Shown here one piece after another: positions 8,843 to 40,645 of a DNA stretch of 64,000 nucleotides. Every line of letters starts with the position of its first letter. The stretch's first letter is position 1. The position numbers and the translations under genes are program-made. Source of the DNA: Acheta domesticus (Eukaryota > Arthropoda > Insecta > Orthoptera > Gryllidae); NCBI GenBank assembly GCA_031308135.1, contig JAHLJT010000631.1, positions 225,622,819-225,686,818 on the forward strand, given 5' to 3'. Below the pieces are notes generated by a model. That model ran no database searches. It was not told the DNA's origin and saw only the letters and a program-made list of their open reading frames with translations.

Positions 8843-9214
8843 TATCAATATCTTGGTCCATCATTTAAAAGACAGAAAATATTCTTGAAATAACAGTTTA
8901 TATAATATTAAATGAAATACATATTGTTCACAACGTTTCGGAAATTACTGGTTTCCATCATCAGGTGAAAAAAGAATTAAATATAATATTTTAAACAATG
9001 GCTAGATACAAACAGAAGAATTACAAAAATATTACGTACACAAATCAATGGAACCCACCTTGTTAAAACCTTTTTACCTCTTTCATTTTTGATATAAAAG
9101 TTAGTTGTATGTTGAGAAGTCCAAATACATTATTAGTATAATATTAATCCACTCATGACCAATTATGGACAATTAGTTGTAATTAATATTTTTAGTTTCT
9201 GTCTATATTTCTGT
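8843..9214 (-). mobile_element. Ribozyme-bearing retroposon inserted in hAT copy b
   Basis: A 372-bp AT-rich insertion flanked by the 13-bp target duplication CATATTGTCATTA (8830-8842 and 9215-9227). The empty site is confirmed by comparison with hAT copy a. It carries a complete hammerhead core on the minus strand (8927-8969). It encodes no protein. Variable 10-15 bp target duplications together with a hammerhead are features known for Penelope-like elements; assignment to that group is inference. Confidence 0.8.
8927..8969 (-). ncRNA. Hammerhead ribozyme core (HH1)
   Basis: On the minus strand: stem I strand UUCAC, then CUGAUGA, stem II GGAAA / UUUCC with a 7-nt loop, then GAAA, CGUU and the stem I partner GUGAA. 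Stem I pairs over 5 of 5 and stem II over 5 of 5. Cleavage would fall after GUU, between plus-strand positions 8932 and 8931. Stem III is only the self-complementary ACGU, the layout known from weak monomeric, dimer-forming hammerheads. Confidence 0.85.
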
Positions 9215-9496
9215 CATATTGTCATTACTCTCGCGATCCACACGTGACCTTGTGTTGATGATCTGGGCAGTTTGCCCGGCTGGTCAGAGACGGGGGGGGG
9301 GAGGTTGAATCATGCATGATACCGGGCTTTACCATGCAAAATACATTAGGATGATGTTAAATTTCTGAATTTGCTGGAACAAAATTCCTTAAATCTAAGC
9401 TTAACCTATTTTTACCTTAATGGGTGTTGACCACGATATAGCGCGTGCGCTAGGCGCAATATTCTCATCCGACATGGATGCAAGAGATTCACTTTT

Positions 9497-9813
9497 AGTC
9501 AATGTTTTCTTCCGGGCTGGAGGGCCGTGGTCCATTGGAAAACATATTTCCAGACGTTGTACTAGTGGGACTATGGTGGCACCACAGTCCCACTAGTACA
9601 AATATCCCCGCGGACCGGCCGGCTCCGTTAGTCATCGGGGAACCATCAAAGAGGATTCTTCGTTCGAGACCACATCGCCACAGAGGATGTCTGCCGCAGT
9701 TGTGGACGAAACGTCTGGAAATATGTTTTTCAATGGACCCGGCAAGAAAAGGCAACTCCAGCCCGGAAGAAAACGACTACAATTCCGGTCGTGAAAGCCT
9801 ACATTGTTTTACT
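9497..9813 (+). mobile_element. Ribozyme-related foldback element
   Basis: A 317-bp insertion flanked by the direct repeat TTCACTTTT (9488-9496 and 9814-9822). The left part (TTCTTCCGGGCTGGAGGGCC, GTGGTCCATTGGAAAACAT) is inverted against the right part (ATGTTTTTCAATGGACC, CAGCCCGGAAGAAAA). The middle has a 17-bp palindromic block, TACTAGTGGGACT / AGTCCCACTAGTA. Termini and the 3' tail (TCCGGTCGTGAAAGCCTACA) match the element at 40333-40723. The right arm carries a mutated hammerhead core. Confidence 0.75.
9676..9720 (+). ncRNA. Decayed hammerhead core (HH2)
   Basis: Stem I strand CCA, then CAGAGGA (consensus CUGANGA, so U4 is changed to A), a weak stem II, then GAAACGUC followed by UGG. The GAAACGUH block and the CCA/UGG stem I are kept. 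The U-to-A change at an essential position predicts loss of activity. Confidence 0.5.
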
Positions 9814-9866
9814 TTCACTTTTGTTTATAACCTTCTGCGGGTGGCCAGTTAGGCATCCCTGTTCTA

Positions 9867-10104
9867 TTGGTTTAGTGGTGAAATGTCGTTGGCATTTAAA
9901 ATTAAATGATCACAGGTGTTGTCATTGCCAACAATGTTATTTATTTTAAGAGCAGCTTTCGATGGCTTAGCCATCATCATCAGTTTTCTGCTGTCTGGAA
10001 GCCACGAAACGACTACGCTACGAACAGCGATGATGGCTAAGTCATCGAAAGCTGCTCTTAAAATAAATAACATTGTTGGCAATGACAACACCTGTGATCA
10101 TTTA
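9867..10104 (-). mobile_element. Ribozyme-bearing foldback element 27 bp upstream of exon c
   Basis: A 238-bp insertion flanked by the 12-bp target duplication ATCCCTGTTCTA (9855-9866 and 10105-10116). Left and right arms are long inverted repeats (AAATGATCACAGGTGTTGTC / GACAACACCTGTGATCATTT; AAGAGCAGCTTTCGATGGCT on the left). The left arm has an intact hammerhead core on the minus strand. The right arm has lost the CUGAUGA box. Only 27 bp separate its right duplication from the exon c acceptor. Confidence 0.8.
9950..9990 (-). ncRNA. Hammerhead ribozyme core (HH3)
   Basis: On the minus strand: CUGAUGA, one U, stem II GAUGGC / GCCAUC (6 of 6 pairs, UAA loop), then GAAA followed by GCUGCUC. 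Stem III differs from its relatives: AGCUGCU is self-complementary apart from a central U-U, with GCUC as the possible cleavage triplet context. Stem I support is weak (two pairs), so activity is less certain than for HH1 or HH8. Confidence 0.65.
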
Positions 10105-10143
10105 ATCCCTGTTCTAATCGGCGTGTGTGCGTGCGGCGCGCAG

Positions 10144-10291
10144 GGTGGTGAAGGACCTGGACGGCGCTCAGGAGTCGCTGGTGGGGTCGGAGGACGAGGG
10201 CTCGCCCTGCCTCGTCACGCTGCTGCTCACGGGCCGCGCCACGCCCTACCTGCACAACGGAGTCGTCTACGTCGGCGACGAGGACCACTAC
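10144..10291 (+). CDS. MINDY4: MINDY-4-type deubiquitinase, exon c
   Basis: The acceptor GCGCAG precedes one G that completes Arg from exon b, then 49 codons: VVKDLDGAQESLVGSEDEG, then SPCLVTLLLTGRATPYLHNG, then VVYVGDEDHY. The core LVxLLLTGrA.p...N is the best-conserved block of MINDY-3/4 proteins. It ends in phase 0 at GACCACTAC|GTGAGT, leading into ALPHFGVL of the next exon. GC-rich codon use continues. The acceptor region is short because a ribozyme element inserted just upstream. Confidence 0.9.
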
Positions 10292-10411
10292 GTGAGTACG
10301 GCCGCCAGCCGCTGGCAGGAAGAAAATTCTTGCGAACGGGTGCTCTGATCAGGAGTTTTCCTGGTTTCTCCGATCTACGCCCAGCGAATGTCGAAGCACT
10401 ACACACATAAG

Positions 10412-10560
10412 CGTTTCCCTAAAAAAGGTCATGCGGTAATTGTTCAATACTCCAAACAAAATCAGATTCAATGTTCTTACACAACTCTTTGTACAACACG
10501 TGTTGCAAATATAGAAAGAAAAAGATGCAATTAAATCGGGGATAACACTGCACCAACGAA
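10412..10560 (+). repeat. Second copy of the 7648-7812 dispersed repeat
   Basis: Collinear with 7648-7812 as described there. It lies 120 bp into intron 3. Confidence 0.6.
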
Positions 10561-12090
10561 CGGACCACGGACTGCGCGCGATCTTTCTTCCCTTGTCTTC
10601 CTCTCTCACACGCACGCACACATACACACTCGCGCGCGTACACTTGCATGCACTACGTTACCTACCATACAAGTCGGAAAACTGGTAGGGAGCTTAGAGC
10701 TTGTCACTGCTGGGGCGGTGACTGATTCGGGGGAGAAACCTGAAAGGGGTAAATCGCGCAAGCGGACTTGTAGGTCGGTTCCAGATCTTACGTCGGGGGA
10801 GGTATAACATACCCTACACCTACGGTAATAATGGTCGTAAGACTTCATTTTATTTTTTCGTTTATTATTTATTTCATTGTATTACCTGTAATGAGATTTT
10901 ATGTTGCCTATCCGGGAGATGTTGCATCCTAGGCAAGCTATCAACAATTCGAATGTGAAGATGACATCTTAATGTTTGTATATTGTATTATTTCAGTAAA
11001 CCATGACTTACAAGAAGTAATATCTGCATTCGAAACGTTTGAAGCTTTGCATAGAAGGTGGTGTTTCTCCGATAGGTATGCTTGAATCCAGTTGGGTTTG
11101 ATAAAATGAGATCGAAAAGCTCATACTTCCTTCGAATAACAGAATCGGTGCCCCTAACTGTTCACTGTTGGAATTCGCGAGTATTCGCGATTACGTTTAC
11201 CTTTCAAGTTTACGTGAAAGTGTTTCCTTTTGTAAATGAAATTGCTACTTTTTTACGTCCTTTACACTAATTTTAGGTACCTGCAGCTTAAATATATTAG
11301 ATAAGAGACGATTCCCACTATATTCACATTACTGGTACCTAGTTGAGTCAAATCTTCATTCGAGAGATTAGCTTATTTTATCGTGATTTTGTGGCTTCTG
11401 TTCACTTTAACTCTCAAGCAATTTACCTAAGTCTGTTGAACGAAAACAGCTGGCGTCCAAAATGAGCATGATAAAAAATATTAACCGCGAACTTGAGCTG
11501 AATCGGGGCAAAATAGAGTAACGTTCATGCAGAACAACATGCAACATGCATGTAGATGCAGAATACGGCAAACAAGGTATGACACCTCTTTAGGTATCTT
11601 CTGAGTCTTCGAAACATTTGAAATAATGCGAAGTTATGTACATGCCACACGAACACAGATTGTGAATCCGATCCCATTGATTTTAGAGCAAAAATAGATT
11701 TGGCCGGAGAAGTATGTGAAACATGGAAGAAGATAATAGAGGGGATTGCGTTTGTAACTTTTTCATAGGTTGTTGTTCGTGTGCAGGTAAAGGATCTCGA
11801 GCATCGCGTGTGCACGCTTCCCTCACATGCGAGCCGTCTATCTTCACCTTCTCTTGGCATTTGCCGACATCATTGTGAAGGTGGCCTCTCCTCGCTCTTT
11901 GGTTTTGCTTCAATTGAAATTATTTTCGGCTCCGCGCTGACTGCAATGCGCATCCACACCTTTCGTGACCGCGCGGTGTTGCTTGCTCCATTGTATTGAA
12001 TCTCTTTTGTTTCGTATTTGACGATCAAATTGAACTGGATCCATTTCTTATGTTGTATTTTATTGTCATCTAGAGCGAGTTTTAAAATAA
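10561..12090. other. Intron 3 DNA without recognised features
   Basis: It starts with about 250 bp of moderately GC-rich sequence containing a CACACGCACGCACACA-type microsatellite (10610-10640) and becomes AT-rich. No exon or transposon is supported. Confidence 0.35.
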
Positions 12091-13945
12091 ACTAGTAGTG
12101 CTAAAACAGCACGTACTTTCTCGCTCGTATTTTCACGCAAAATTATGCATAAAGTACTCAATTTTTTTTAAAAAAAATGTACATGACTTTATTTCGAAAT
12201 CTATTTTTAAGTAACAGATTACTTTATCATTTTTAAGAAACATATTAATGATAACTGTATATATTTAATATTTTAGTTTGAGGAAAACTCCTAACAAATT
12301 TTGAAATTTCACAATTTTCGAAAAATCAGTAAATCAACGTACACGAGACCTGCACCATTCTCTTAAAAGTCTTTCACACTATCCAAAAAAATCTAATAAA
12401 AAACAAATGAGGCATTTTTTTGAAAATTCGGAAAATGCCCCAGGGGCTTCATGTCCAGTGTCATGTACCCTCAAAATTAAAATATCGGTTTCAAATTCAA
12501 GGGGTTACGATATCAGTCAGATCGACTGGCGAATATCAATTTTGGAGAAAATCGGCTGAACGGTTTAGCCGCTAGCATTGTTCACAGTCGGACGGACGGA
12601 CGGACGGACGGACGGACGGACGGACGGACGGACGGACGGACGGACGGACGGACGGACGGACGGACGGACGGACGGACGGACGGACGGACGGACGGACGGA
12701 CGGACGGACGGACGGACGGACGGACGGACGGACGGACGGACGGACGGACGGACGGACGGACGGACGGACGGACGGACGGACGGACGGACGGACGGACGGA
12801 CGGACGGACGGACGGACGGACGGACGGACGGACGGACGGACGGACGGACGGACGGACGGACGGACGGACGGACGGACGGACGGACGGACGGACGGACGGA
12901 CGGACGGACGGACGGACGGACGGACGGACGGACGGACGGACGGACGGACGGACGGACGGACGGACGGACGGACGGACGGACGGACGGACGGACGGACGGA
13001 CGGACGGACGGACGGACGGACGGACGGACGGACGGACGGACGGACGGACGGACGGACGGACGGACGGACGGACGGACGGACGGACGGACGGACGGACGGA
13101 CGGACGGACGGACGGACGGACGGACGGACGGACGGACGGACGGACGGACGGACGGACGGACGGACGGACGGACGGACGGACGGACGGACGGACGGACGGA
13201 CGGACGGACGGACGGACGGACGGACGGACGGACGGACGGACGGACGGACGGACGGACGGACGGACGGACGGACGGACGGACGGACGGACGGACGGACGGA
13301 CGGACGGACGGACGGACGGACGGACGGACGGACGGACGGACGGACGGACGGACGGACGGACGGACGGACGGACGGACGGACGGACGGACGGACGGACGGA
13401 CGGACGGACGGACGGACGGACGGACGGACGGACGGACGGACGGACGGACGGACGGACGGACGGACGGACGGACGGACGGACGGACGGACGGACGGACGGA
13501 CGGACGGACGGACGGACGGACGGACGGACGGACGGACGGACGGACGGACGGACGGACGGACGGACGGACGGACGGACGGACGGACGGACGGACGGACGGA
13601 CGGACGGACGGACGGACGGACGGACGGACGGACGGACGGACGGACGGACGGACGGACGGACGGACGGACGGACGGACGGACGGACGGACGGACGGACGGA
13701 CGGACGGACGGACGGACGGACGGACGGACAAACGAACGTTTTGTCGTCATTCGATTTTTCGGTATCAAGGCGTTACAAAACATAGATTCTGGCTACTCCA
13801 CGTCTTAGAGGATTTTTTTTCAAATGTAGCAACTGGATTTCTTCGCTTTTTCATTACCAGGACTCTGTTATAAGAGTTTTTCTGCCGAAAATTTGCTGTT
13901 TTTTGCGCAGCATTACGTAACTTTCTCTCTACTCCACAGCGTGAA
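12091..13945 (+). repeat. Dispersed family F, copy B, expanded by (CGGA)n
   Basis: It runs from CTAGTAGTGCTAAAACAGCA to GCGCAGCATTACGTAACTTT with the landmarks listed for copy A. Where other copies have a few GGAC units after GTTCACAG, this one holds a 1.14-kb array. Without the array the copy would be about 0.7 kb. Confidence 0.75.
12589..13729. repeat. Perfect (CGGA)n tetranucleotide array, ~285 units
   Basis: About 1,141 bp of uninterrupted CGGA with no visible substitution. All reading frames are open, giving Gly-Arg-Thr-Asp and Ser-Val-Arg-Pro repeats that are not proteins. Perfect homogeneity implies very recent expansion; the exact length may be limited by assembly. Confidence 0.97.
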
Positions 13946-14378
13946 AGTAAAAATTTAAAGAGGTAACCGATAATGTCACGCACGGGTCGCCGTAAGAACG
14001 AGCAGTGTTGCCTCGGCATCAGCTCAGTCAATTTAGTTGTTTGTTTTTTTAGCTGTTCCTTAGAAAACGAAATGATGGAAGGAAGTTTTAGGTTCAATTA
14101 AAATAGCATGCTTCACTGGTAAACACTGAATTTATTCCTGAAGGGAAGGTCAGGGAAGTTACAAAAAAAATGTATGATAGAATAGGATAGAATCATGCCC
14201 TGCCTGATGAGCTCTTATTAAATGAAACTATTGTTAAGATTTCCAAAAGAAGAACAAAATGAATCATTAAATTAAATCCTTAAAATTAGCACAAAATTAG
14301 CCTCATCAATATGACGTTATTTGTCAAAGCGCGACAACTCTCGTCTGAGACCTCTTTAATGACATTAAGGATCACGTC

Positions 14379-14700
14379 ATGCGTGGAAAGCAGTCTGAAG
14401 TGCGGGTTAGCCTGAGCAATACTCTTGAGAGGATGCCGGGCCGGGCGGCGCCGCAGCGGCGGCGACGGCGGAGGCGACGGCGGCGGCAGCTGGGGTGTTG
14501 CGTGGCTGCGGGGCCGTCGGGCGTCGCCCGCGGTCCGGTGCGGCCTTCAGCTCATCCTGCAGTCGCAGCGTCGAATCGTGGCGTGGCTCGGTCACTTCGT
14601 ACCCGCGTGCATGAGGTGGACATTCGCCGACCGAGGCAGTCGCGGATCATTTGCAATTACAGTCGATCCTTTGCGGTCATATCCCGCGAATAATTTCAAC
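14379..14700. other. CpG-rich island inside intron 3
   Basis: About 300 bp with dense CpG and CGGCGG runs (GGCGGCGCCGCAGCGGCGGC near 14445). Open frames here (104 and 134 codons on the plus strand) follow from composition and show no domain. It could be an unspliced exon of an unknown gene, a promoter, or an LTR remnant; I cannot tell which. Confidence 0.35.
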
Positions 14701-18459: not shown

Positions 18460-18505
18460 AGTTTGAGAGAGAGAGACAGACAGACAGACAGAGAGATACA
18501 GAGAC
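18460..18505 (+). repeat. (GA)n / (CAGA)n microsatellite
   Basis: Simple repeat GAGAGAGAGACAGACAGACA and its continuation, directly followed by the 5' end of family F copy C. Confidence 0.8.
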
Positions 18506-24250: not shown

Positions 24251-24314
24251 ACAAGAGGTCCTCCAAAGATGTTTTACCGGTATTTAAAACGTATGAAAAG
24301 TATTTTTTTAACGT

Positions 24315-24760
24315 CTTATCAATATTTAGGACTGTCTGTTGTAATAATTTGAATATAAAATAATAGTTCCAAGACGTTTATAGACAGACTAACAATAAAA
24401 TTTTTATTGATAAAATCACATAATTGCACTGTTGAATAAATATATAATTAGCAACGTTTCGGAGGACAGTTTTTCCTCCATCATCAGGCCATGCAGGAAT
24501 AAAATTAGATGATAAAACATATGAATAACAACATAGGTCTAGGTGACTCTGATGATGCTTGTTGATACAATTTATATGGAGGAATGGAGGAAGGAATGGA
24601 GGAAGAATGGAGGAATGGAGGAGGAGGGATGGAGGAAAAACTGTCCTCCGAAACGTTGCTAATTTTATATTTATTCAACTGTGCAATTATGTGATTTTAT
24701 CAATAAAATTTTTATTGTTAGTCTGTCTCTAAACGTCTTGGAACTATTATTTTACATTCA
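24315..24760. mobile_element. Ribozyme-bearing foldback element 21 bp upstream of exon d
   Basis: A 446-bp insertion flanked by the target duplication TATTTTTTTAACGT / TATTTTTTAACGT (24301-24314 and 24761-24773, differing by one T). Arms of ~125 bp are inverted: AATAGTTCCAAGACGTTTA / TAAACGTCTTGGAACTATT, and AACGTTTCGGAGGACAGTTT / AAACTGTCCTCCGAAACGTT. The tips between them hold a GGAATGGAGGAA minisatellite (24580-24635). The left arm has an intact hammerhead core; in the right arm CUGAUGA is replaced by the minisatellite. Its right end lies 21 bp from the exon d acceptor. Confidence 0.8.
24447..24493 (-). ncRNA. Hammerhead ribozyme core (HH4)
   Basis: On the minus strand: stem I strand UGGC, CUGAUGA, one U, stem II GGAGGA / UCCUCC (6 of 6 pairs, 7-nt loop), GAAACGUU, then GCUA. 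Stem I pairs GCUA with UGGC through one G-U wobble. Cleavage is predicted between plus positions 24453 and 24452. Confidence 0.8.
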
Positions 24761-24794
24761 TATTTTTTAACGTGTTTTTAATACGTGTCCTCAG

Positions 24795-25069
24795 GCGCTG
24801 CCGCACTTCGGCGTGCTGGCGCGCGCGGAGGTGGGGCTGCTGCTGTGGGAGGCGCGCGGCGGCGACTGCGGCGGCGGCGGCGGGGCGGCGGCGGCGGCGG
24901 CGGCGGCGGGGGCAGCGACGGCGGCGGGGGCGGAGGACTCGGAGCGGCAGCCCGGCAGCCGCCTCAAGACGCCGCAGCTGCCCGTGTGGGTGAGCGCGGC
25001 CGCGGGCCACTTCGGCGTGCTCTTCGCCACCGACCGCGAGCTCCTGCGCAACTACCACGCCGAGCGACG
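24795..25069 (+). CDS. MINDY4: MINDY-4-type deubiquitinase, exon d (catalytic His)
   Basis: It starts in phase 0 after GTCCTCAG with ALPHFGVLARAEVGLLLWE. It then carries an unusual Gly/Ala-rich insert of roughly 35 residues encoded by GGC/GCG repeats (about 24850-24940), then RLKTPQLPVWVSAAAGHFG, VLFATDRELLRNYHAER. The block LKTP..PvWV....GHFgvLF is the MINDY-3/4 segment holding the active-site histidine, which is retained here (GHF); human MINDY-4B, described as inactive, lacks it. LLRNYHAERRF matches the MINDY-4 pattern and leaves no room for the EF-hand insert of MINDY-3. It ends in phase 2 (CG|GTGAGC). Confidence 0.92.
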
Positions 25070-25084
25070 GTGAGCGCAGGGGAA

Positions 25085-25250
25085 AGCAAAGGGGTACCAT
25101 ATGTACACGTAAGCTTCCGCGGCTCGAGTTCGTAACTTCTCGGCTGTCCGGGTGACGCCGCGTCGTTGGCAGAGAGGCCGACGTTTCGTCTACCATGTCG
25201 CAGGCTTCCTCAGCTTCCTTTGAGGAAGCCTGCGACATGGTAAAATATAA
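25085..25250 (-). mobile_element. Ribozyme-related element in intron 4
   Basis: On the minus strand, after the hammerhead core, it reads GGCCTCTCTGCCAACGACGC, then GGCGTCACCCGGACAGCCGA and CGAGCCGCGGAAGC. This resembles the tail of the copies at 25.4 and 38.5-38.7 kb (CGCGGCGTTTCCCGGATAGC, CGAGTAGnnACTGACTCCGGC). The tip is a hairpin (ACCATGTCGCAGGCTTCCTC against its inverse) joining two inverted ribozyme arms. No target duplication was found. Confidence 0.55.
25176..25218 (-). ncRNA. Hammerhead core (HH5), stem I disrupted
   Basis: CUGAGGA, an imperfect stem II, then GAAACGUC. The conserved boxes are intact, but the 5' strand of stem I has been replaced by hairpin-tip sequence, so GGCC after the cleavage site has no partner. 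It is probably inactive as it stands. Confidence 0.5.
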
Positions 25251-25384: not shown

Positions 25385-25466
25385 CTCTCTGATTTTGTAC
25401 GAGAGCGTGGGCTTCCGCTGCTGGAGTCAGTTGCTACTCGGCTATTCGGAACACGCCGTGTCCTAG
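25385..25466 (-). mobile_element. Ribozyme-related element, left fragment of the outer shell
   Basis: On the minus strand CACGGCGTGTTCCGAATAGC, CGAGTAGCAACTGACTCCAG continues the sequence that is interrupted at 38484 on the far side of the LTR retrotransposon. The junction is marked by CTAG on both sides. It is the same family as 38484-38765. Confidence 0.6.
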
Positions 25467-26015
25467 TGTCGTGATGACATTGATGGGAGGGAGTATGTGG
25501 CGGGAGAAAGACGAACTCTTGGTTGGCTATTAACAGCGGTTTATTGTAAGCCCTGGTTTCAAGTACAATGTTACATCATAGCAGAGGCTACGCAGTCCAG
25601 CACTCAGTCGGTCGTTGCCATGAGGGTGGGGGAGAGGTGGTAGGCAGCGGCAGCGGCGGCGGCGGCGGCGGCAATGGCGGTAACAAAGGCAGATAGGCTG
25701 GCGGTGGGTCGCTTGGCTCAGCCTTGCGTCGATTCCCGACTTGGTCAAACCGAAGGCAACCGTGGAGTCGGGACGCCGGCGATCAGTACCATGCTCACTA
25801 GGAGCGGTAAACAAGCGACATCGCGGCGGGCGTACGCCGCCTTTATATACTGCCGGGTCAGTCCATCCCTACTGCAGCAGGGGTGGCATTGCCCTCGTTC
25901 GGGTCACTCACAGGGAGGCGGGGGACGGCGGTCAGCCCGCACATCTGGTAGCCATGCCTGCTCGACCCGGGCGAAGAGAAAGCGGAAGTGTCCAAGGCGG
26001 CGTCGCTTCACCACA
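25467..26015 (-). mobile_element. 3' LTR of a gag-protease retrotransposon
   Basis: A 549-bp LTR; in element orientation it begins TGTGGTGAAGCGACGCCG and ends CAATGTCATCACGACA. It matches the 5' LTR (30289-30769 plus 38413-38479, 548 bp) with very few differences, so the insertion is young. It has an AATAAA-type signal (plus strand GGTTTATTGTAAGC at 25540) and a GGC/GCC microsatellite. The outer flank is CTAG, repeated after the other LTR at 38480-38483. A purine-rich ggcggggtga sits immediately inside it. Confidence 0.9.
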
Positions 26016-26542
26016 TCACCCCGCCCGTAATCAGCCGCGGGGCGGGGGATTTCGGAGACCCGACTGAGTACTGAACTATTCTATATAAATTACACACAAT
26101 ACACATGAACAAATATGGCATATGTTAGGTTCTTAAACACCAAGATAAAAAAAACATGATCAAAACGGTACCACAAAAAGACATAAAAGACACAATAATG
26201 TAAAGGCATAACACGTTAAAAAACACTTGGTAAGAAGATATAGTTCATAGATATATACAACAAACACTAAAAGAAGGACAAAAATACGTAACATAAAGAG
26301 ATATAACATTAAAAAGACACAAAACGAGGCACGCAGCTTGACAGAATAAAAGAAACCAATATAAACAATATTCTTTGGCTTGAATTTAGTCCTTTTTGCA
26401 AATTTTGCATCAGTTCATGAGTCTATTAGTCTTTTTTGGCTTTACCTACTATTTTATTCACATTTTGCGCCACTATCTTCTTGTACTTATAATTCACTGT
26501 CACTTTTCATACATATTCACTGTTGCACTTAAGTTTTCAGCA

Positions 26543-28818
26543 CTAAAATATTTTCTTGTTCGTTCGCAACACAAAACTAATAACCATATACGGCTTCAAC
26601 ACTTGCACAAGGAGGCCTTTGCTTTCCCTTAGCGCCAGGTCCTCGATTATTGCCTTGGTAAAGCCATATGGATTAGGCGAAGGTTCTATTAACCTGCGGG
26701 TGGTTCTGTCCATTGCGTTGTCGTTTGCGGCTTCGGCGGTGTTTGGCGGTCGGTCAGCCATCATCCGCCAGTCGTACACGCGCGCCTCCGGCTGCGGACG
26801 CAGACAGTGCGCATACGCCGTGCAAAGGGCGTATGAAGGCAGGTTCATCTCGCACGCGTCGGCCATCTCATCTGCAGGCGCGTTCGTGTTGCCCGACACT
26901 AGTGACTGCGTGCCCCACAGGCAGGGCCTGCGCTCGAACCCAGGAGTGCCCGGCACCAGCAACGGAAAGTTCATCTCGCATGTTGCGGCCAGCATCTCGC
27001 CCGCCAGCACGTTCGCGTAGCCCGTCACCAATGGCAGCAAGTCACGTAGGCAACATTTGCGCTCGAACCGAGAAGTGTCCACGGCGCCATCAGGGCGCCA
27101 CCGTGGGGCCTTCTCGCGCCTTCCACACACCAGCAAGTGGACAGGATCCAATTCGGTGCCCACCGGCCGCAGATTCTGCGGAGGCGAGTAGGCCAGGAGG
27201 CTCGTGATGAGCGTTGGCCTCACAGTATGCTGGGCCATCCACTCGGTCATGCCTCGCTGCTCCTCCGCCGCAACGCCGGCCTCCGGCTCCAGCAGCGACG
27301 ACAATGGCGCCAATTTGCCACTTTGGAAAGTAGTAGGAAGGTTTGGGTACCAACTAGGATCTGAGACACTGGACTGAGATGCCGCTGCATAAGGCACAAT
27401 TGAAGCAAATCCTTCTTTTGAGTCAGAAGTTACACTATGCAAAATACTGGATTCGTCAACACGTTCTAATATATCAATTTCTTTCTCTTTGAATCCCGAA
27501 ATTTTGGAATTGGTAAGCAGCGCAACGCGATGATCAGTTTTTGTATAATTGGTCTTAACTGTTCTACAAGGGGCAACTACGGGGGAATCGTCAACTGCAT
27601 TAGACACCTCTACTAAATTTATTAAAATATTGGAATCCTCCTCATTAGGCGTACAGGCACATTTACCCTCTGTCCCGCCCACATTCATTCTTCTAACCTG
27701 AAACACATGAGCTTCCCCTTCGGGCGTACAAGCGCGTGTCTCCGCTGTCCCGCCCGCGTTCAACTTACTAGTTCGAAAAACGTGAGTTTCCCCTTCGGGC
27801 GTACAAGCGCGAGTCTCCGCTGTCCCGCCCGCGTTCTTCTTATTAGCGCGAAAAACGTGAGTTTCCTCTTCGGGCGTACAAGCGCGTTTCTCCGCTGTCC
27901 CGCTCGCGTTCGTCTTACTAGCTCGAAAAACGTGAGTTTCCCCTTCGGGCGTACAAGCGCGTGTCTCCGCTGTCCCGCCCGCGTTCAACTTACTAGCTCG
28001 AAAAACGTGAGTTTCCCCTTCGGGCGTACAAGCGCGTGTCTCCGCTGTCCCGCCCGCGTTCAACTTACTAGCTCGAAAAACGTGAGTTCCCCCTTCGGGC
28101 GTACAAGCGCGTGTCTCCGCTGTCCCGCCCGCGTTCAACTTACTCGCTCGAAAAACGTGAGTTTCCTCTTCGGGCGTACAAGCGCGTATCTTCGCTGTCC
28201 CGCCCGCACACATCTCACTCGCGTTCATCTCGCCTATTTCGCTCTCTGTCAACGCCCCTAGCAGATCCAAATAACCCGTGTCCCGATGTCCTGCATCTAT
28301 GTCTACTACCTCTCCCACATATTGATGTTCGCGCGGCTCGTCTGCAAAAGAAATCAAATCGCCACACGGCGGTTTCCTAATTTCATTTGGTTCCATCCGA
28401 GGAGCGAGAGTTGTCACGTGCCCCTCGCAAACCTGCATTGTCTTGTTTCGTAACGAAATACTACTTCCATACTTCACCATGAAATCTAAGCCAAGTATCC
28501 CTGCATAGTTGGTAGTTCCTAATTCTACGACGAGCGTGTCATGCTCGTATGTTGCTTGATCGATCACAAATGGCACATTGCACTGACCTAGTATCTGAAG
28601 ATTGTGCCCAGAAGCGCTTTTAATTGCCGAACGATAATTTGAAAGTGGAATTTGGCCGAAAGGAAAAATTTTAGAATCGCATAAAGTAACCGCAGCTCCT
28701 GTGTCGACCAGAAATTGGTGCTGACGTCCTAAAATACCTACTCTAATTGTCATGCCCTCTGACGGGGTAACTGCTAATACTTCATCCCCGACCTCGTGGT
28801 CGGGATTTATCAGTTTCC
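26543..28818 (-). CDS. Retropepsin-like protease ORF with 25-residue repeats
   Basis: An aspartic protease domain lies near the N-terminus: FLVDTGAAVTLCD contains the catalytic DTGA, about 20 residues after the first Met (28753), with GILGLDFMV as the downstream flap/ILG motif. The frame is open upstream through the gag stop, so it is probably made by -1 frameshifting (GGGAAAC at 28813-28819) rather than from that Met. After the protease come eight 75-bp repeats (27646-28230; consensus THVFRASKLNAGG, TAETRACTPEGE). The ~400-residue remainder is Pro/Arg-rich without an RT motif, ending IEPSPNPYGFTKAIIEDLAL. The frame is intact over 736 codons from Met. Confidence 0.75.
27646..28230 (-). repeat. 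Eight in-frame 75-bp repeats in the protease ORF
   Basis: The anchor CGGGCGTACAAGCGCG recurs at exact 75-bp steps (27721, 27796, 27871, 27946, 28021, 28096, 28171), plus a more degenerate first unit near 27646. Each unit encodes 25 residues with one Cys (RACTPEGE). Confidence 0.9.
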
Positions 28819-28819
28819 C
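28787..28819 (-). promoter_or_regulatory. Predicted -1 ribosomal frameshift signal
   Basis: On the minus strand, in gag frame: TCG GGA AAC TGA. GGGAAAC fits the X XXY YYZ slippery pattern directly before the gag stop. After an 8-nt spacer (28805-28812) comes a perfect hairpin, CCCGACC-ACGA-GGTCGGG (28787-28804). Slipping by -1 enters the open protease frame. This geometry matches known retroviral gag-pro signals. Confidence 0.8.
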
Positions 28820-29517
28820 GAATTCACGTCCCGTTTTTGACAGTCTACCGTGCAGTGGCCGGATTCTTTACATTTACTACATATTATCGATGGGCATTTC
28901 CGTATGTTGTGATCTGTCTGCCCGCAATTAAAACACTTTCGTTTCTTGTCCGGACAATCTCGCGAAAAATGGCCTGGTTTTCCGCAATGATAGCACACTC
29001 TCGCCGCGAGTGGCTGTCGAGGAGGTGGCGGTGGTTGCTGTGCGAATCCCGGGCTCCGACCTCGGGGTGGATGCTGAATGGCAAAGAACTCTGAACCTGC
29101 ACCGAACGGCAATGCCGATGAGTAATCTCGGTTGCCCTCTCTTATATTACCATAAGAGGGAAAGGCGGAAGTCTGCACCGGCACAGACGGTTGTGGCGGT
29201 ATTGCCTGTTGCGAAAACCCGTACGGCGAGTTGGGCGCATAGAAAGAATTTTGTACCGCCGACTGCGGCATTGTTGCCCACTGTGCGTACCCTTGCAGGG
29301 CGTCGCCGCCAAGAGAGTTCAGCGAGCTGACTGTTCGTCTCGCAGACGCATAATTCCTAGCAATCGCTTCTTCTTGTTTTGCAAACGCTACTGCTTCTAG
29401 CATTGTTTTTGGATTACGCACCGAAACGAACCGACCTATTTCCTCTCTCAGACCTGCTAGAAACTGCGCTAATAATCTTTCCTCGAACATCGCCTTGGTT
29501 GCAACTGCATCGGGGTT
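28810..29517 (-). CDS. Gag, C-terminal part with three zinc knuckles
   Basis: It encodes MFEERLLAQFLAGLREEIGR and a Gln/Pro-rich linker, then three CCHC knuckles: CYHCGKPGHFSRDC, CFNCGQTDHNIRKC and CSKCKESGHCTVDC (C-X2-C-X4-H-X4-C), expected to bind the element's RNA. The frame continues upstream to about 29517, where it abuts the N-terminal Gag in a different frame. It stops at TGA 28810-28812, at the frameshift signal. Confidence 0.8.
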   Translation of the reverse strand, partial: NPDAVATKAMFEERLLAQFLAGLREEIGRFVSVRNPKTMLEAVAFAKQEEAIARNYASARRTVSSLNSLGGDALQGYAQWATMPQSAVQNSFYAPNSPYGFSQQAIPPQPSVPVQTSAFPSYGNIREGNRDYSSALPFGAGSEFFAIQHPPRGRSPGFAQQPPPPPRQPLAARVCYHCGKPGHFSRDCPDKKRKCFNCGQTDHNIRKCPSIICSKCKESGHCTVDCQKRDVNSGN

Positions 29518-30020
29518 ACTGTAGCAGTTTTGTAGTGTCGTTCTAGCGTCGCGAGCCTGCTCGCGAAGTCACTTGTCGACTCCAAGTGCTTTTGACTACA
29601 GTCGTTAAACATCTTCTCTAAAGTTGGCCGTGATAATTTTGGGGAAAATCTATCTTTCATATACTTGCAAAAATCCGAGTAGGACGCCACTACGTACGCA
29701 TTGTTCTCCGCAAATTCCGATGCAACACCAGCTAAACGTAAGCGGACTACGCCTAGTGTTTGGGCCTCACTCCAGTTGCTAAAATTGCTAACTATTCGAA
29801 GACGCTCTAAAAAGGTTTCAATGCGGGTACCGTCCTCACCAGTGAACATTGGAACAAGACAGATTTGACCGGCTGATACGTTGGCTTGTACCGAAATATT
29901 TTGTGATGTGGGAGTTCTGTCGCCCTCAATTGTAAATACGGGAGATACAAAATCCATGAGATTCGTGCCAAGCCCAGTTTCCCAGGGCAAGGGGAACTGC
30001 TGATTGCCTCGTTGCGACAT
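29469..30020 (-). pseudogene. Gag, N-terminal part, frameshifted
   Basis: It starts MSQRGNQQFPLPWETG after the primer region. It contains a retrotransposon-Gag-like helix region (FLERLRIVSNFSNWSEAQTL, YMKDRFSPKLSRPTLEKMF, FASRLATLERHYKT). Around 29490-29520 the frame turns into an unrelated tail ending in Asp-Tyr, while the Gag similarity continues in the neighbouring frame. A single-base indel in a CCCC run there is the simplest cause; this breaks Gag unless it is a sequencing error. Confidence 0.7.
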
Positions 30021-30149
30021 GCTGCTGTTTAATCAATCCTGCGCGAAAAATTTTGAATACAAAGTGAAGAAAAAAAATTTGAATGGCCGTTACTTTACCC
30101 TAGTTCTCTTTCTCTCGCATTGCTACTGATGGTCTACTCATGGTGGGGC

Positions 30150-30215
30150 TCGAACCCGTGCTCCCTTTCGGAGCCCAGATTACCATCCCACGCTCCCTCC
30201 CTTTCGATTCGAGCT
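30150..30215 (-). other. tRNA-like fragment in the leader
   Basis: On the minus strand GTGGG is followed after about 40 nt by GGGTTCGAGCCCCACC. This resembles a T-arm and acceptor end, with a B-box-like GGTTCGAGCC and GTGGG/CCCAC pairing. The T stem pairs only three bases and no anticodon arm is convincing, so it is not called a tRNA gene. Confidence 0.25.
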
Positions 30216-30228
30216 CACAACCCCGCAC

Positions 30229-30288
30229 CTGACGCCAATGTGTCGTGATGACATATATGTCGTCAGGACCCCACACCTGACGCCAATA
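30229..30288 (-). promoter_or_regulatory. Primer-binding-site region, partly duplicated
   Basis: In element orientation the 5' LTR end CATCACGACA is followed by TATTGGCGTCAGGTGTGGGG, a TGG-starting sequence as expected for a tRNA primer site. A second LTR-end/primer-like copy (ATGTCATCACGACAC, ATTGGCGTCAGGTGCGGGG) follows about 50 bp later (plus strand 30222-30254). The identity of the tRNA is not assigned. Confidence 0.5.
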
Positions 30289-30769
30289 TGTCGTGATGAC
30301 ATTGATGGGAGGGTGTATGTGGCGGGAGAAAGACGAACTCTTGGTTGGCTATTAACAGCGGTTTATTGTAAGCCCTGGTTTCAAGTACAATGTTACATCA
30401 TAGCAGAGGCTACGCAGTCCAGCACTCAGTCGGTCGTTGCCATGAGGGTGGGGGAGAGGTGGTAGGCAGCGGCAGCGGCGGCGGCGGCGGCGGCAATGGC
30501 GGTAACAAAGGTAGATAGGCTGGCGGTGGGTGGCTTGGCTCAGCCTTGCGTCGATTCCCGACTTGGTCAACCCGAAGGCAACCGTGGAGTCGGGACGCCG
30601 GCGATCAGTACCATGCTCACGAAGAGCGGTAAACAAGCGACATCTCGGCGGCCGTACGCCGCCTTTATATACTGCCGGGTCAGTCCATTCCTCGGCAGCG
30701 GGGGTGGCATTGCCCTCGTTCGGGTCACTCACAGGGGGCGGGGGACGGGCGGTCAGCCCGCACATCTGG
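30289..30769 (-). mobile_element. 5' LTR of the retrotransposon, inner segment
   Basis: 481 bp matching 25467 to ~25950 of the 3' LTR. It is cut at CACATCTGG, where the foldback element entered. The rest of the LTR is at 38413-38479. Confidence 0.9.
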
Positions 30770-31725
30770 AGCCATCTAAAGCTAGCAGCGCCCAGAAACG
30801 AATCTCAACCAAATTATATCCAAAATTTTATGCTAATTTTAGGCTAATTAAATGCTCTATTCCCGAATTTTAGGCTCCTCTGGATTTCCGAAAATCGTGG
30901 ACGCTGCTAGCTTTAGTCTAAAGCTAGCAGCGCCCACCCAGAATCTATCTCAAAATCAATTGTAAAATCTGAAACCCATCCCAAAATTTAATAATAATTT
31001 TAGGCTCTTGGAAAAAAATTATCCCCGCCTTCAAATTCCAAAAATCAGGGCTGTACAAAGCGAAACAATTAACATTGGTTCTTATGGGCGAATAAACATC
31101 AAAATCAAAAAACCTTAGGAAAAATCTGAAACCCCTCCCAAAAGTTAAGAATAATTTTAGGCTCTTGGAAAAAAATTATCCCCGCCTTCAAATTTTAAAA
31201 ATCAGGGCTGTACAAAGCGAAACAATTAACATTGGTTCTTACGGGTGAAATAACACCAAAATCAAAAAACCATAGGAAAAATCTGAAACCCCTCCCAAAA
31301 GTTAAGAATAATTTTAGGCTCTTGGAAAAAAATTATCCCCGCCTTCAAATCCCAAAATCAGGGCTGTACAAAGCGAAACAATTAACATTGGTTCTTACGG
31401 GTGAAATAACACCAAATTCAAAAAACCTTAGGAAAAATCTGAAACCCCTCCCAAAAGTTAAGAATAATTTTAGGCTCTTTAAAAAAAAATCACCCCCGCC
31501 TTCAAATTCCAAAAATCAGGGCTGTACAAAGCGAAACAATTAACATTGGTTCTTACGGGTGAAATAACACCAAAATCAAAAAACCTTAGGAAAAATCTGA
31601 AACCCCTCCCAAAAGTTAAGAATAATTTTAGGCTCTTGGAAAAAAATTATCCCCGCCTTCAAATTCCAAAAATCAGGGCTGTACAAAGCGAAACAATTAA
31701 CATTGGTTCTTACGGGCGAATAAAC
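30770..31725 (+). repeat. Left foldback arm: terminal module plus five 158-bp units
   Basis: The first ~145 bp form a module that is itself bounded by inverted CTAAAGCTAGCAGCGCCCA sequences (30775 and ~30900-30917) and is followed head-to-head by another TCTAAAGCTAGCAGCGCCC. Tandem units then recur, each with AGGGCTGTACAAAGCGAAAC and AATTAACATTGGTTCTTACG, near 31050, 31207, 31363, 31521 and 31680. Confidence 0.85.
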
Positions 31726-31739
31726 ACCACTCACTATGA

Positions 31740-32330: not shown

Positions 32331-32339
32331 CTACGTATA

Positions 32340-33990: not shown

Positions 33991-33999
33991 TATGGAATT

Positions 34000-36830: not shown

Positions 36831-36832
36831 AG

Positions 36833-38403
36833 TAAGAACCAATGTTAATTGTTTCGCTTTGTACAGCCCTGAATTTTGGAATTTGAAGGCGGGGATAATT
36901 TTTTTCCAAGAGCCTAAAATTATCCTTAACTTTTGGGAGGGGTTTCGAATTTTTCCTAAGGTTTTTTGATTTTGGTGTTTATTCGCCCGTAAGAACAAAT
37001 GTTAATTGTTTCGCTTTGTACAGCCCTGATTTTTGGAATTTGAAGGCGGGGATGATTTTTTTTAAAGAGCCTAAAATTATTCTTAACTTTTGGGAGGGGT
37101 TTCAGATTTTTCCTAAGGTTTTTTGAATTTGGTGTTATTTCACCCGTAAGAACCAATGTTAATTGTTTCGCTTTGTACAGCCCTGAATTTTGGAATTTGA
37201 AGGCGGGGATAATTTTTTTCCAAGAGCCTAAAATTATTCTCAACTTTTGGGAGGAGTTTCAGATTTTTCCTAAGGTTTTATGATTTTGGTGTTATTTCAC
37301 CCGTAAAAACCAATGTTAATTGTTTCGCTTTGTACAGCCCTGATTTTTGGAATTTGAAGGCGGGGATGATTTGTTTCCAAGAGCCTAAAATTATTCTTAA
37401 CTTTTGGGAGGGGTTTCAGATTTTTCCTAAGGTTTTTTGAATGTGGTGTTATTTCACCCGTAAGAACCAATGTTAATTGTTTCGCTTTGTACAGCCCTGA
37501 TTTTTAAAATTTGAAGGCGGGGATAATTTTTTTCCAAGAGCCTAAAATTATTCTTAACTTTTGGGAGGAGTTTCAGATTTTTCCTAAGGTTTTTTGAATT
37601 TGGTGTTATTTCACCCGTAAGAACCAATGTTAATTGTTTCGCTTTGTACAGCCCTGATTTTTAAAATTTGAAGGCGGGGATAATTTTTTTCCAAGAGCCT
37701 AAAATTATTCTTAACTTTTGGGAGGGGTTTCAGATTTTTCCTAAGGTTTTTTGAATTTGGTGTTATTTCACCCGTAAGAACCAATGTTAATTGTTTCGCT
37801 TTGTACAGCCCTGATTTTTAAAATTTGAAGGCGGGGATAATTTTTTTCCAAGAGCCTAAAATTATTCTTAACTTTTGGGAGGGGTTTCAGATTTTTCCTA
37901 AGGTTTTTTGATTTTGATGTTTATTCGCCCATAAGAACCAATGTTAATTGTTTCGCTTTGTACAGCCCTGATTTTTGGAATTTGAAGGCGGGGATAATTT
38001 TTTTTAAAGAGCCTAAAATTATTCTTAACTTTTGGGAGGGGTTTCAGATTTTTCCTAAGGTTTTTTGATTTTGATGTTTATTCGCCCATAAGAACCAATG
38101 TTAATTGTTTCGCTTTGTACAGCCCTGATTTTTGGAATTTGAAGGCGGGGATAATTTTTTTCCAAGAGCCCAAAATTATTATTAAATTTTGGGATGGGTT
38201 TCAGATTTTACAATTGATTTTGAGATAGATTCTGTGTGGGCGCTGCTAGCTTTAGACTAAAGCTAGCAGCGCCCACGATTTTCGGAAATCCAGAGGAGCC
38301 TAAAATTCGGGAATAGAGCATTTAATTAGCCTAAAATTAGCATAAAATTTTGGATATAGTTTGGTTGAGATTGGTTTCTGGGCGCTGCTAACTTTAGATG
38401 GCT
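36833..38403 (-). repeat. Right foldback arm: nine 158-bp units plus terminal module
   Basis: The inverted form of the left-arm unit (GTTAATTGTTTCGCTTTGTA) recurs at about 36844, 37001, 37159, 37316, 37474, 37631, 37788, 37945 and 38100, i.e. every ~157 bp. The terminal module at ~38240-38403 has the same internal palindrome as the left arm. The two arms differ in unit number (nine versus five). Confidence 0.9.
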
Positions 38404-38412
38404 CACATTTGG

Positions 38413-38479
38413 TAGCCATGCCGGCTCGACCCGGGCGAAGTGAAAGCGGAAGCGTCCACGGCAGCGTCGCTTCACCACA
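38413..38479 (-). mobile_element. 5' LTR of the retrotransposon, outer segment
   Basis: 67 bp matching the end of the 3' LTR (25949-26015): GTAGCCATGCCGGCTCGACC to GCGTCGCTTCACCACA. It is followed by the CTAG target duplication (38480-38483). Confidence 0.85.
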
Positions 38480-38483
38480 CTAG

Positions 38484-38765
38484 GTACAGGTCCCAACGTT
38501 TCGGACGCGATTCTGCGATGCATTTCGCCGTGAGGAAGGTCGCAAAATGGCGGCCGAAGCGTTGGCACCTGTGCCTAGAACGCGGCGTTTCCCGGATAGC
38601 CGAGTAGGTAGTGACTCCGGCCGCGGATACCTACGCTTTTATTTGACCAATCTCTTTGGGGAAGATCAATAATGAGACACTTCGCTCTGAGGAAGGTCGC
38701 AGAATGGCGGCCGAAACGTTGGCACTTGGGCCTAGTACGCGGCGTCTCCCTGACAGCCAAGTTGC
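38484..38765 (+). mobile_element. Ribozyme-related element, right part of the outer shell
   Basis: It contains three related arms. The first is an inverted arm (38484-38520) with CCAACGTTTCGG. The second is a plus-strand arm at 38527-38620 with decayed boxes (GUGAGGA, GAAG) and the tail GCCTAGAACGCGGCGTTTCC. The third, at 38684-38765, has an intact core and the tail GCCTAGTACGCGGCGTCTCC. The first arm is continuous with 25466 downward once the LTR element is removed. Confidence 0.6.
38684..38723 (+). ncRNA. Hammerhead ribozyme core (HH6)
   Basis: Stem I strand GCU, CUGAGGA, stem II GGUCGC / GCGGCC (6 pairs, one U-G), GAAACGUU, then GGC. Stem I is only three pairs including one wobble. Cleavage is predicted between 38720 and 38721. 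Confidence 0.7.
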
Positions 38766-39438
38766 TACAAATTTTGTTGGAGCAGCGCCCGTGAACTCGT
38801 GGTGAAACAACAATTAATCTAATTATTTAAGACTAAATTAAAAAGACTATTAGACTAATTAATATAATTAATTTGTCTAATAATTATTTTACAATTATAT
38901 CTACAATTTCTGTTTTCAATTTATCTTAACATCTCTCTCTCTTTCTCATGCTTCATTTATGTCTTTCACTATCTAACCGTCCCTAAAGGCCCATTGACAA
39001 TCCAAGCATAAACGTGAGCATGACATTAACATAAACGTTAGGATGATAACTTTCAAGCTTGCAAGCTCCTGTGCTTATACTTACGTAAGAAATAAAAAAT
39101 GAACCAATCACAGTACGTTAGCTGAAAATCGAGTATCGAGATAGGATTGAAGTCGACAGATCGAACCAAAGATTGATTTTCGAGAATGCGTGGTTGATTT
39201 TCGGCGGTTTTCTGCGTTGTTTCGTAGCGTGCGATCTGTTTTAATACATAATCTCGAGTCTCACATCCAACCAATGGTAACCACAATGACATAAAATCTT
39301 ATTTTGCTTACGCTTATGTTGGACATTGTGAATACTTCAGTCTATCACCTATGTTAAAGTTTATGTCTATTTGTTACGCGTTTGCCTTGCGAAAGGGCGT
39401 AACCAGTTTTGTGCGTGGGGGGGGGGGCGGGGCTGCAG

Positions 39439-39600
39439 GTTCCAGCTGCACTACTACTGCTTCGAGGCGGCGTCGTGCCTGCTGGGCGTGGACACGCGCT
39501 TCGAGGGCGACGGCGACGCCAACGGGGGCGACGCGCACGCGCCGCGGCGCCGCGCCGACGACGCCGCGCGCACCCCCGTCGAGAAGGTCATCTGCAGCAA
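39439..39600 (+). CDS. MINDY4: MINDY-4-type deubiquitinase, exon e
   Basis: One G completes Arg, then FQLHYYCFEAASCLLGVDTR, a low-complexity acidic/basic stretch (EGDGDANGGDAHAPRRRADD) and TPVEKVICSK. RF.LhYY followed by a variable loop and tP.e..I.tKW is the MINDY-4 C-terminal pattern. It enters in phase 1, leaves in phase 2 (AGCAA|GTGAGT), and is very GC-rich. Its acceptor is unusual: a G12-C-G4 run and GGCTGCAG with no pyrimidine tract. Confidence 0.88.
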
Positions 39601-39601
39601 G

Positions 39602-40319
39602 TGAGTGCACGCGCTGCCCCACGGCGCTCCTCAAGGGCCCGCCCCCAGGGCCCAAGGCCCTCAAGGCCTACTGACGTACTACGGGTCCTCAAGGGCCCGT
39701 ACACGTCAGGGCCCGGTAGTTTTAAAAATAGTTATTTTCATATTAAGTGTGTAAATTTTCTGTTTCTTTCACGGTCGAAATTGAGATTTTTTGCCGAGAC
39801 CGTAGGTAGAGGTAAAAAATCTCAATCGAGACCATAAAAAACAAGAAAAAACGGAAACTTCATACACGAAATATGAGCAACATTTTTCTACAACTGCATA
39901 AAAATATAATACAAATGGGTTTGTAAACTTGTATTGGAAGCAAGCCTGATACCCCGGACCATATCAGAGATGGCAGTTACATGTTAAAGGGAAGCTCCTT
40001 ATTTTCTTGGAGGGGAGAAAGTCGACCCCAGAGAGTATTTAGACTATATAGAACAATATAGAAATGCATTTCATAGGGTCATGATTAGAGATAAGTATTC
40101 TAAAACCATGCAAAATAGTTATTTATGTCACGAGTCCTCTAAATGGGTCTTTAAGGACAAAGCTGGAAGGTTAACTGCAAGGCGGAGAGATAGCGAAGCT
40201 AAGTAGTTAACCTTCCGGCTGAGTCGTATTTACAAATGTTTAGCGGGAATTGCTGTGTTAAGAAAACTTCCGCTCAATATGTCCGTAAGTATAAAAACAT
40301 TTACTGATACTATGGAGAC
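39602..40319. other. Start of intron 5, nothing recognised
   Basis: GC-rich for 100 bp after the donor, with a CTCAAGGGCCCG duplication (about 39632 and 39688), then AT-rich. No feature is supported. Confidence 0.35.
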
Positions 40320-40385
40320 AGCTTGTAGCTATATTCTCGATGTCTTCCGGGCTGATGGGCCGTGGTCCAATTGGCTTGGAACTGC

Positions 40386-40427
40386 CAAACGTTTCGCCCA
40401 CGACTGCGGTGGGCATCTTCAGTGGCG
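40386..40427 (-). ncRNA. Hammerhead ribozyme core (HH7), left arm
   Basis: The minus-strand twin of HH8 with the same boxes: CUGAAGA (plus TCTTCAG, 40416-40422), stem II GCCCAC / GUGGGC, GAAACGUU, and UGGC pairing with GCCA. Confidence 0.85.
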
Positions 40428-40602
40428 AGGTCTCGGGCGAAGTGTTCGGGACAGCGGCTTACTGGCGACTGACTAAGCCGCTGTCCCGAACACTTCGCCC
40501 CCACTCGGACACGGGCGAAGTGTCCGGGACAGCGGCTTACTGGCGACTGACAGTCACCAGTCGGTCGCCAGTCGCCAGTAAGTACACTTCGCCCGAGACC
40601 TC

Positions 40603-40645
40603 GCCACTGAAGATGCCCACCGCAGTCGTGGGCGAAACGTTTGGC
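40603..40645 (+). ncRNA. Hammerhead ribozyme core (HH8), right arm
   Basis: Stem I GCCA (40603-40606), CUGAAGA (40607-40613), one U, stem II GCCCAC / GUGGGC (6 of 6 pairs, 7-nt loop), GAAA (40634-40637), CGUU, then UGGC (40642-40645), which pairs 4 of 4 with GCCA. Cleavage is predicted between 40641 and 40642. All catalytic-core positions match consensus. Confidence 0.88.

Follow-up and report, generated by a model that had tools for sequence, protein, structure and literature searches.

A 64,000-nucleotide stretch of the Acheta domesticus genome (contig JAHLJT010000631.1; called the window below) contains short inserts that carry motifs resembling the hammerhead ribozyme. Do these inserts form a family of their own, or are they pieces of a known type of mobile element? 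A preliminary description, made from the sequence alone, placed at seven loci a family of compact elements without protein genes that was, by implication, distinct from Penelope. Its hammerhead reading is retained here, but not its separate family. The inserts are best read as degenerate copies of Penelope-like elements (PLEs) rather than as a new family. In other words, they would be remnants of several PLE families, pieces of the region where the pseudo-long terminal repeat (pLTR) meets the start of the open reading frame (ORF), and their ribozymes would be mostly silent. We put the probability of this reading at roughly 0.8.

The hammerhead motif and its fold

The scan of the window looked for CUGANGA and GAAACGU joined by a paired stem II (4 bp or more), with zero to two additional bases allowed ahead of the stem. 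Five strict matches were found (Table 1), and none appeared in any of 20 dinucleotide shuffles, in which 0 or 1 extra base was tried. A loose scan that allowed one mismatch per side gave seven matches, compared with a mean of 1.15 and a maximum of 4 in the shuffles. In the strict copies, the CUGANGA and GAAA parts of a hammerhead core are joined by a paired stem II, and an ACGU box is present. The motifs at 40.4 and 40.6 kb are the two arms of a single inverted repeat and thus represent one insertion.

In each of the seven loose matches, a single additional nucleotide, U or A, separates CUGANGA from stem II, so that the stem never follows immediately. A scan that left no room for this base, with stem II required to follow CUGANGA at once, found no match in the window. 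Stem III is not closed within the molecule, since GAAACGUH leaves no loop, and no copy with a stem III loop was found. Several copies are damaged. The 9.7 kb copy has CAGAGGA in place of CUGANGA, the 38.5 kb copy has GUGAGGA and GAAGCG, GAAAGC replaces GAAACGUH in the 9.97 kb copy, and stem II of the 25.2 kb copy is broken. The motif said to be shared by seven loci is thus above chance in its five strict copies. What had been observed holds in the main, but has to be corrected for the extra nucleotide, the lack of a stem III loop, and the damaged copies.

Is the fold real? The stem II pairings quoted in the preliminary description are correct (by script; GAUGGC/GCCAUC of the 9.97 kb copy by eye), as are those of stem I. 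Covariation was scored on four GC-rich copies (9.68, 40.6, 38.5, and 38.7 kb) with the structure given by hand. The pair count excludes the AT-rich copies and those at 40.4, 9.97, and 25.2 kb; it was restricted in this way because a MAFFT alignment of eight copies misaligned the 9.97 kb copy. Standard pairs occupy 37 of the 40 pair cells, and stem II is paired in 24 of 24. The covariation score was 0.683 compared with 0.326 in shuffles, only 1 of 500 of which scored as high; six slid structures scored only 0.06-0.27. The number of double-sided pair changes (four) was not unusual, as 115 of 500 shuffles had as many. Because this count is unremarkable and the 38.5 and 38.7 kb copies are near-duplicates, the covariation test alone is modest.

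A search for held-out copies is a better test of the fold than the covariation score. A covariance model built from the four GC-rich copies finds the held-out AT-rich copies at 24.4 kb (E 1.6e-5) and 8.9 kb (E 2.4e-5). The same model also finds the copy at 25.2 kb (E 1.1e-4), a partial copy at 24.65 kb (E 0.056), and a decayed one at 38.49 kb (E 0.26), and its first match outside the elements comes at E 0.42. When the same alignment was used without structure, the 8.9 kb copy came at E 5.4 and the 24.4 kb copy was absent up to E 10. The 9.97 kb copy was missed by the motif scan, the structure model, and the sequence-only model. Three results support the hammerhead reading: more motifs than expected by chance, covariation in stem II, and held-out AT-rich copies found by the structure model where sequence alone fails.

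Anatomy of the inserts and comparison with known elements

Exact flanking target duplications of 9-13 bp are present at five of the seven loci, where the inserts measure 238-448 bp. At the 25.2 and 38.5-38.7 kb loci, no convincing target duplication was found in the flanks searched. Of the compact elements of 240-450 bp with 9-14 bp duplications first proposed, those at the five loci have such duplications. Inverted arms are present at 9.5, 9.9, 24.3, 38.5, and 40.3 kb and provide the pLTR-like repeats of a PLE. Four of the five duplication-flanked inserts have such arms; the exception is at 8.9 kb, where there is only a weak 16-nt pair. The copies at 38.5 and 38.7 kb are the sole direct pair of ribozyme copies in the window.

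A tail of ~27-39 nt extends beyond the arms, on one side only, in four of the five duplication-flanked inserts. One-sided tails together with short target duplications are likewise characteristic of PLEs. In the GC-rich group of copies, a tail motif near GACTCCGGCYGYGRAAGCC is found at 9781, 38613, and 40700 on the plus strand and at 25112 and 25410 on the minus strand. This motif was derived from the same GC-rich copies and, with up to 5 mismatches counted, matches 12 times: five times in elements (0-4 mismatches) and seven times elsewhere (26784 with 3 mismatches, six others with 5). Measured from core position A9, which is the A of the AUG where the extra base is U, the 3' end of the insert lies 111, 111, 116, 127, or 167 nt away. 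The predicted cut site lies 27-29 nt from A9 in the four copies with GAAACGUH that were measured.

One could suppose that the inserts derive from DNA transposons (miniature inverted-repeat transposable elements or foldback elements), and that the hammerhead likeness is due to chance or to a palindrome at the DNA level. Inverted repeats and target duplications are indeed features of such derivatives. However, the duplications vary in length from 9 to 13 bp, the tails are one-sided, and the ribozyme AUG position is 111-127 nt away from four of the five 3' ends. Furthermore, the unpaired core is conserved alongside the stems, and finding the AT-rich copies depends on pairing. We give this explanation almost no weight.

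Table 1. Positions of inserts, hammerhead motifs, and related features in the window.
Feature	Position	Strand	Target duplication	Details
PLE-like insertion, AT-rich, one ribozyme motif	8843-9214	-	CATATTGTCATTA, 13 bp, 8830-8842 and 9215-9227	no strong inverted arms
Minimal hammerhead	8932-8964	-		strict match; CUGAUGA+U, stem II 5 bp, GAAACGUU, stem I 5 bp
PLE-like insertion, tail at right end	9497-9813	+	TTCACTTTT, 9 bp, 9488-9496 and 9814-9822	inverted arms 9504-9522/9756-9774 and 9529-9558/9710-9739
Damaged hammerhead (CAGAGGA), stem II 6 bp intact	9681-9715	+		motif scan
Foldback insertion, one-sided tail at left	9867-10104	-	ATCCCTGTTCTA, 12 bp, 9855-9866 and 10105-10116	78-nt arms 99% complementary, 9901-9978/10029-10106
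Hammerhead-like core, GAAAGC for GAAACGUH	9950-9983	-		stem II GAUGGC/GCCAUC by eye
Foldback insertion, tail at left	24315-24762	-	TTTTTTAACGT, 11 bp, 24304-24314 and 24763-24773	140-nt arms 95% complementary, 24343-24482/24628-24767
Minimal hammerhead	24453-24487	-		strict match; stem II 6 bp, stem I 4 bp
Opposite-arm hammerhead remnant, GGA-rich repeat replaces 5' core	24627-24657	+		partial model match, E 0.056
Degenerate hammerhead, stem II broken	25176-25215	-		model matches; then tail-like stretch 25112-25130 (-)
Second tail-like remnant without ribozyme	25410-25428	-		tail-motif match
Decayed hammerhead, opposite orientation, same locus as 38.5/38.7 kb	38491-38536	-		models, inverted repeat
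Damaged hammerhead (GUGAGGA, GAAGCG)	38526-38567	+		scan, model; then tail 38613-38631
Intact-core hammerhead, direct-repeat partner of 38.5 kb copy	38687-38720	+		strict match, motif scan
Foldback PLE-like insertion, tail at right end	40333-40723	+	AGCTTGTAGCTAT, 13 bp, 40320-40332 and 40724-40736	128-nt arms 95% complementary, 40318-40445/40584-40711
Intact-core hammerhead, left arm of 40 kb foldback	40388-40422	-		strict match, motif scan
Intact-core hammerhead, right arm of 40 kb foldback	40607-40641	+		strict match; AUG at 40613, predicted cut after 40641
Open frame MPTAVVGETFGSSKPIGPRPISPEDIENIDSGCESLQSL, read as ORF start through tail	40613-40729	+		last two codons in target duplication

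How do the inserts compare with PLEs? Cervera and de la Pena reportedly described minimal type I hammerheads of PLEs in 2014, and PLE hammerhead variants are said, by the title of a 2017 report of Lunse et al., to cut as dimers. The minimal hammerheads described in PLE pLTRs have stems I and II and no stem III loop, and by that description they are like the copies found here (PMC7761336, PMC6155905). In animal genomes, minimal type I hammerheads that have no stem III nucleotides are reported to number in the thousands, some in PLE pLTRs and most in dispersed non-coding DNA (PMC7761336); such dispersal is also described in PMC6155905.

In PAc, a Poseidon-type PLE of Anolis carolinensis, the ORF and its start codon begin at stem II, as in the inserts, and the cut site lies 26 bp past the start codon, compared with 27-29 nt from A9 here (PMC11167929). 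The PAc core may share the extra U as well, judging from its start codon, which is preceded by G8 and placed where stem II begins. Reverse transcription of PAc is described as starting 111-118 nt into the ORF, corresponding to the tail (PMC11167929). The inserts end 111-167 nt from the AUG position, and the four ends at 111-127 nt are near the start used by the lizard element. PAc is a tandem full-length element, whereas the inserts are short, mostly foldback, and without an enzyme gene. In rotifer PLEs, the pLTRs are inverted, contain the ORF start, and have an optional 31-bp tail on one of them; head-to-head palindromic junctions and duplications of 8-10 bp are also described (PMC3846280). 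The inserts share with the Penelope elements of Adineta vaga inverted pLTRs, a one-sided tail, the ORF start in the pLTR, head-to-head junctions, and short target duplications. Unlike the inserts, the A. vaga families described there retain reverse transcriptase/endonuclease ORFs or long captured sequences (PMC3846280), and the word hammerhead is absent from that text on the A. vaga elements.

The PLE reading rests on inverted pLTR-like arms, a one-sided tail, duplications of 9-13 bp, the position of the AUG relative to the cut, and 3' ends 111-167 nt further on. The novelty implied by compact, protein-less elements distinct from Penelope is not supported, because the arms, tail, duplications, start codon, and most 3' ends match published PLEs.

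Would the ribozymes in the window cut? In predicted folds of whole elements, all 35 ribozyme bases are paired elsewhere at 40 kb (both strands) and 24 kb, 28 of 34 at 9.9 and 38 kb, 17 of 35 at 9.5 kb, and none at 8.9 kb. Because the ribozyme is base-paired to its own inverted copy in these folds, most of the stranded foldback copies are probably catalytically silent. Predicted monomers keep the core open between stems I and II only at 40.6 and 38.7 kb. Two copies follow each other in the same orientation at 38.5/38.7 kb, although the core of the first is damaged.

These folds bear on another explanation, in which the inserts are distinct, small, non-autonomous foldback retroelements. Such retrozyme-like elements would propagate themselves, with a ribozyme that processes their RNA and an enzyme supplied in trans by a PLE or a long interspersed nuclear element (LINE). 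This explanation would suit five short, duplication-flanked inserts in a window where no enzyme gene was seen. Animal non-LTR retrozymes of ~170-400 nt exist that are, like the inserts, short and enzyme-less with type I hammerheads (PMC7229834), and PLEs have been proposed as retrozyme helpers (PMC7229834, PMC7761336). However, retrozymes are described as direct tandem repeats with canonical ribozymes (PMC7229834), whereas the inserts are mostly foldbacks with minimal motifs. Plain inverted repeats make up four of the seven loci and a stem III loop is absent from every copy; in place of tandem monomers with canonical hammerheads, the window has only the direct pair at 38.5/38.7 kb, with minimal motifs. 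The copies are also mostly unlike each other, as blastn among the element loci (E<=0.01) joins only the 9.5 and 40.4 kb elements, over 27 bp. In addition, the predicted folds at 40 (both strands), 24, 9.9, and 38 kb pair at least 28 of the 34-35 ribozyme bases. A self-propagating family of this kind appears unlikely.

If the inserts are PLE remnants, how could they have formed? The observed motif, its covariation, the arms, the tails, the target duplications, and the 3' end positions would fit the following model. Each insert would be a piece of the junction between a PLE pseudo-LTR and the ORF start, and this junction would carry a PLE-type minimal type I hammerhead without a stem III loop. 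The piece would have been copied by reverse transcription begun ~110-170 nt downstream of the start codon position. In several cases, reverse transcription may have turned back on itself, which would leave a head-to-head inverted repeat with target duplications. A lone copy could not close the hammerhead; cutting would need either a partner, through a palindromic ACGU stem III, or the element's protein. In the parent elements, the ribozyme would have been maintained by selection. From published work, we infer mobilisation by a PLE protein, catalysis, and the requirement for a dimer or a protein. The PAc ribozyme is reported to cut only with its protein added, and ribozyme mutants kept insertion in vitro (PMC11167929).

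A number of results weigh against the reading of the inserts as hammerhead-bearing PLE remnants. The evidence that would seal it, a PLE enzyme gene, was not found in the window. No PLE reverse transcriptase or GIY-YIG domain was seen by eye among the 98 window ORFs of at least 90 aa or in a Pfam scan of nine window frames, and a motif scan of the window gave two YxDD matches and no GIY-YIG. A protein search found no full-length relatives of the ORF start. The single nucleotide inserted before stem II is a departure from the textbook hammerhead core. Rfam gave no hammerhead match in the whole window (gathering threshold or E<=10) or in two short stretches. Rfam hammerhead models expect a closed stem III. 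The preliminary description had held that a lack of covariance-model hits above threshold would refute its claim, and for Rfam this is formally the outcome; the model built here finds the set. Minimum-energy cofolds of four motifs with themselves formed the ACGU-ACGU stem III in none of the four, and the predicted monomers of the 8.9 and 24.4 kb copies pair part of the core. Sequence alone does better than structure for the copies at 25.2 kb (4.4e-5) and 38.49 kb (7.2e-4), which are GC-rich relatives with broken stems. The idea of a conserved tail stem-loop as the start of reverse transcription was rejected, as the folds of eight tails are inconsistent. Lastly, the 9 bp duplicated at 9.5 kb carry little weight by themselves, because random 60-nt flank pairs share at least 9 bases in 5.5% of draws (at least 13 in 2.0%) and the real flanks searched were often longer than 60 nt.

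Start codon and open frame at the ribozyme

Copies with the GAAACGU cut box and a recognisable core have an AUG between the catalytic core and the cut site. Its letters are A9, the extra U, and G10.1; when the extra base is A, the AUG lies within loop II instead. What could this overlap mean? A review describes what PLE hammerheads do as unknown or a mystery (PMC7761336), and the start-codon overlap offers a testable idea for it. A tentative and on balance doubtful proposal is that the ribozyme doubles as a start-codon switch. Cutting would remove the AUG and split the transcripts into message (uncut) and template (cut). If so, the extra nucleotide would be selected for translation. Caution is needed here because, with A9 and G10.1 fixed, any extra U creates an AUG automatically.

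The literature, which was covered incompletely, gave no instance of several families sharing an AUG within the ribozyme; PAc has such an AUG in one (PMC11167929). Likewise, the use of the 3' ends of decayed copies to recover the start of reverse transcription was not met in the incompletely covered literature searched, and it may already be published. The fold allows minimal PLE hammerheads that Rfam misses to be detected in decayed insertions.

In GC-rich copies, a frame opened by an AUG runs through the tail. It reads MPTAVVGETFGSS...DSGCESLQ at 40.6 kb, MVDETSA...SSRGSLR at 25.2 kb, and MAAEALA...DSGRGYLR at 38.5 kb. The GC-rich copies look as if they keep the first ~30-37 codons of an ORF. 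The frame at 9.7 kb is disrupted by a frameshift, and those of the AT-rich copies close after 21 and 16 codons. A database protein, P0001, shares most of the 40.6 kb frame (48 of 74 residues identical) and could be from the same genome as the window. P0001 matches to the last codon inside the insert and differs at the next two codons. This supports the insert end, but weakly, because the query frame stops there. Protein relatives were not confirmed among 8 pattern matches in viral contigs and 220 in prokaryote contigs.

It may then be asked whether conservation acts on the protein, that is, on the start of a PLE ORF, with the paired stem as a by-product. The GC-rich frames keep E-T or E-A from the GAAACG/GAAGCG box as well as a later DSGR-like stretch, P0001 shares the frame, and the 25.2 kb frame is kept while its stem II is broken. 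However, the AT-rich copies have the same fold but not that protein sequence, and only the structure model finds them. We consider protein-level conservation very unlikely as the explanation.

Surroundings of the inserts and the motif in viral contigs

Pfam matches to a MINDY-3/4 deubiquitinase are present at 3028-3567 and 24771-25073. These matches suggest that this host gene carries at least the inserts at 8.9-10.1 and 24.3 kb within its introns. The minus strand at 25500-30870 holds a Ty3-like LTR element whose gag has zinc knuckles and whose protease-like ORF contains internal repeats. Similar translated stretches at ~25.5-26.0 and 30.3-30.9 kb look, by eye, like LTRs, and the Pfam matches of the three ORFs scanned in this element include no reverse transcriptase. 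A 76-nt stretch is 92% identical between the 38 kb PLE locus (38404-38479) and the LTR-like region of the Ty3-like element (25940-26015), which suggests a nested insertion.

Viral contigs were considered as a source of independent copies of the motif, and this was rejected. A loose pattern, different from the loose scan above, matched at least 120 stretches there. Among the 120 matches listed, stem II has at least 5 bp in 5 and a single pair only in 76. On this loose pattern the window has six matches, five of them with a stem II of at least 5 bp; the sixth is the 25.2 kb copy, and 40.4/40.6 kb is one insertion. A stricter pattern gave 23 stretches in viral contigs. The only viral contig whose ORFs were viewed (L014) reads as phage by eye.

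Other hairpin-like inverted repeats in the window are located at 39741-39864, 6904-6964, and 38236-38276, and microRNA models match them only below threshold. The YxDD match at 59980 on the minus strand has a context (FLYADDFKRHRKLK) that resembles, by eye, a remnant of a LINE reverse transcriptase. A short-unit repeat of ~1.2 kb at 12565-13785 reads as GRTD or RPSV repeats in several frames.

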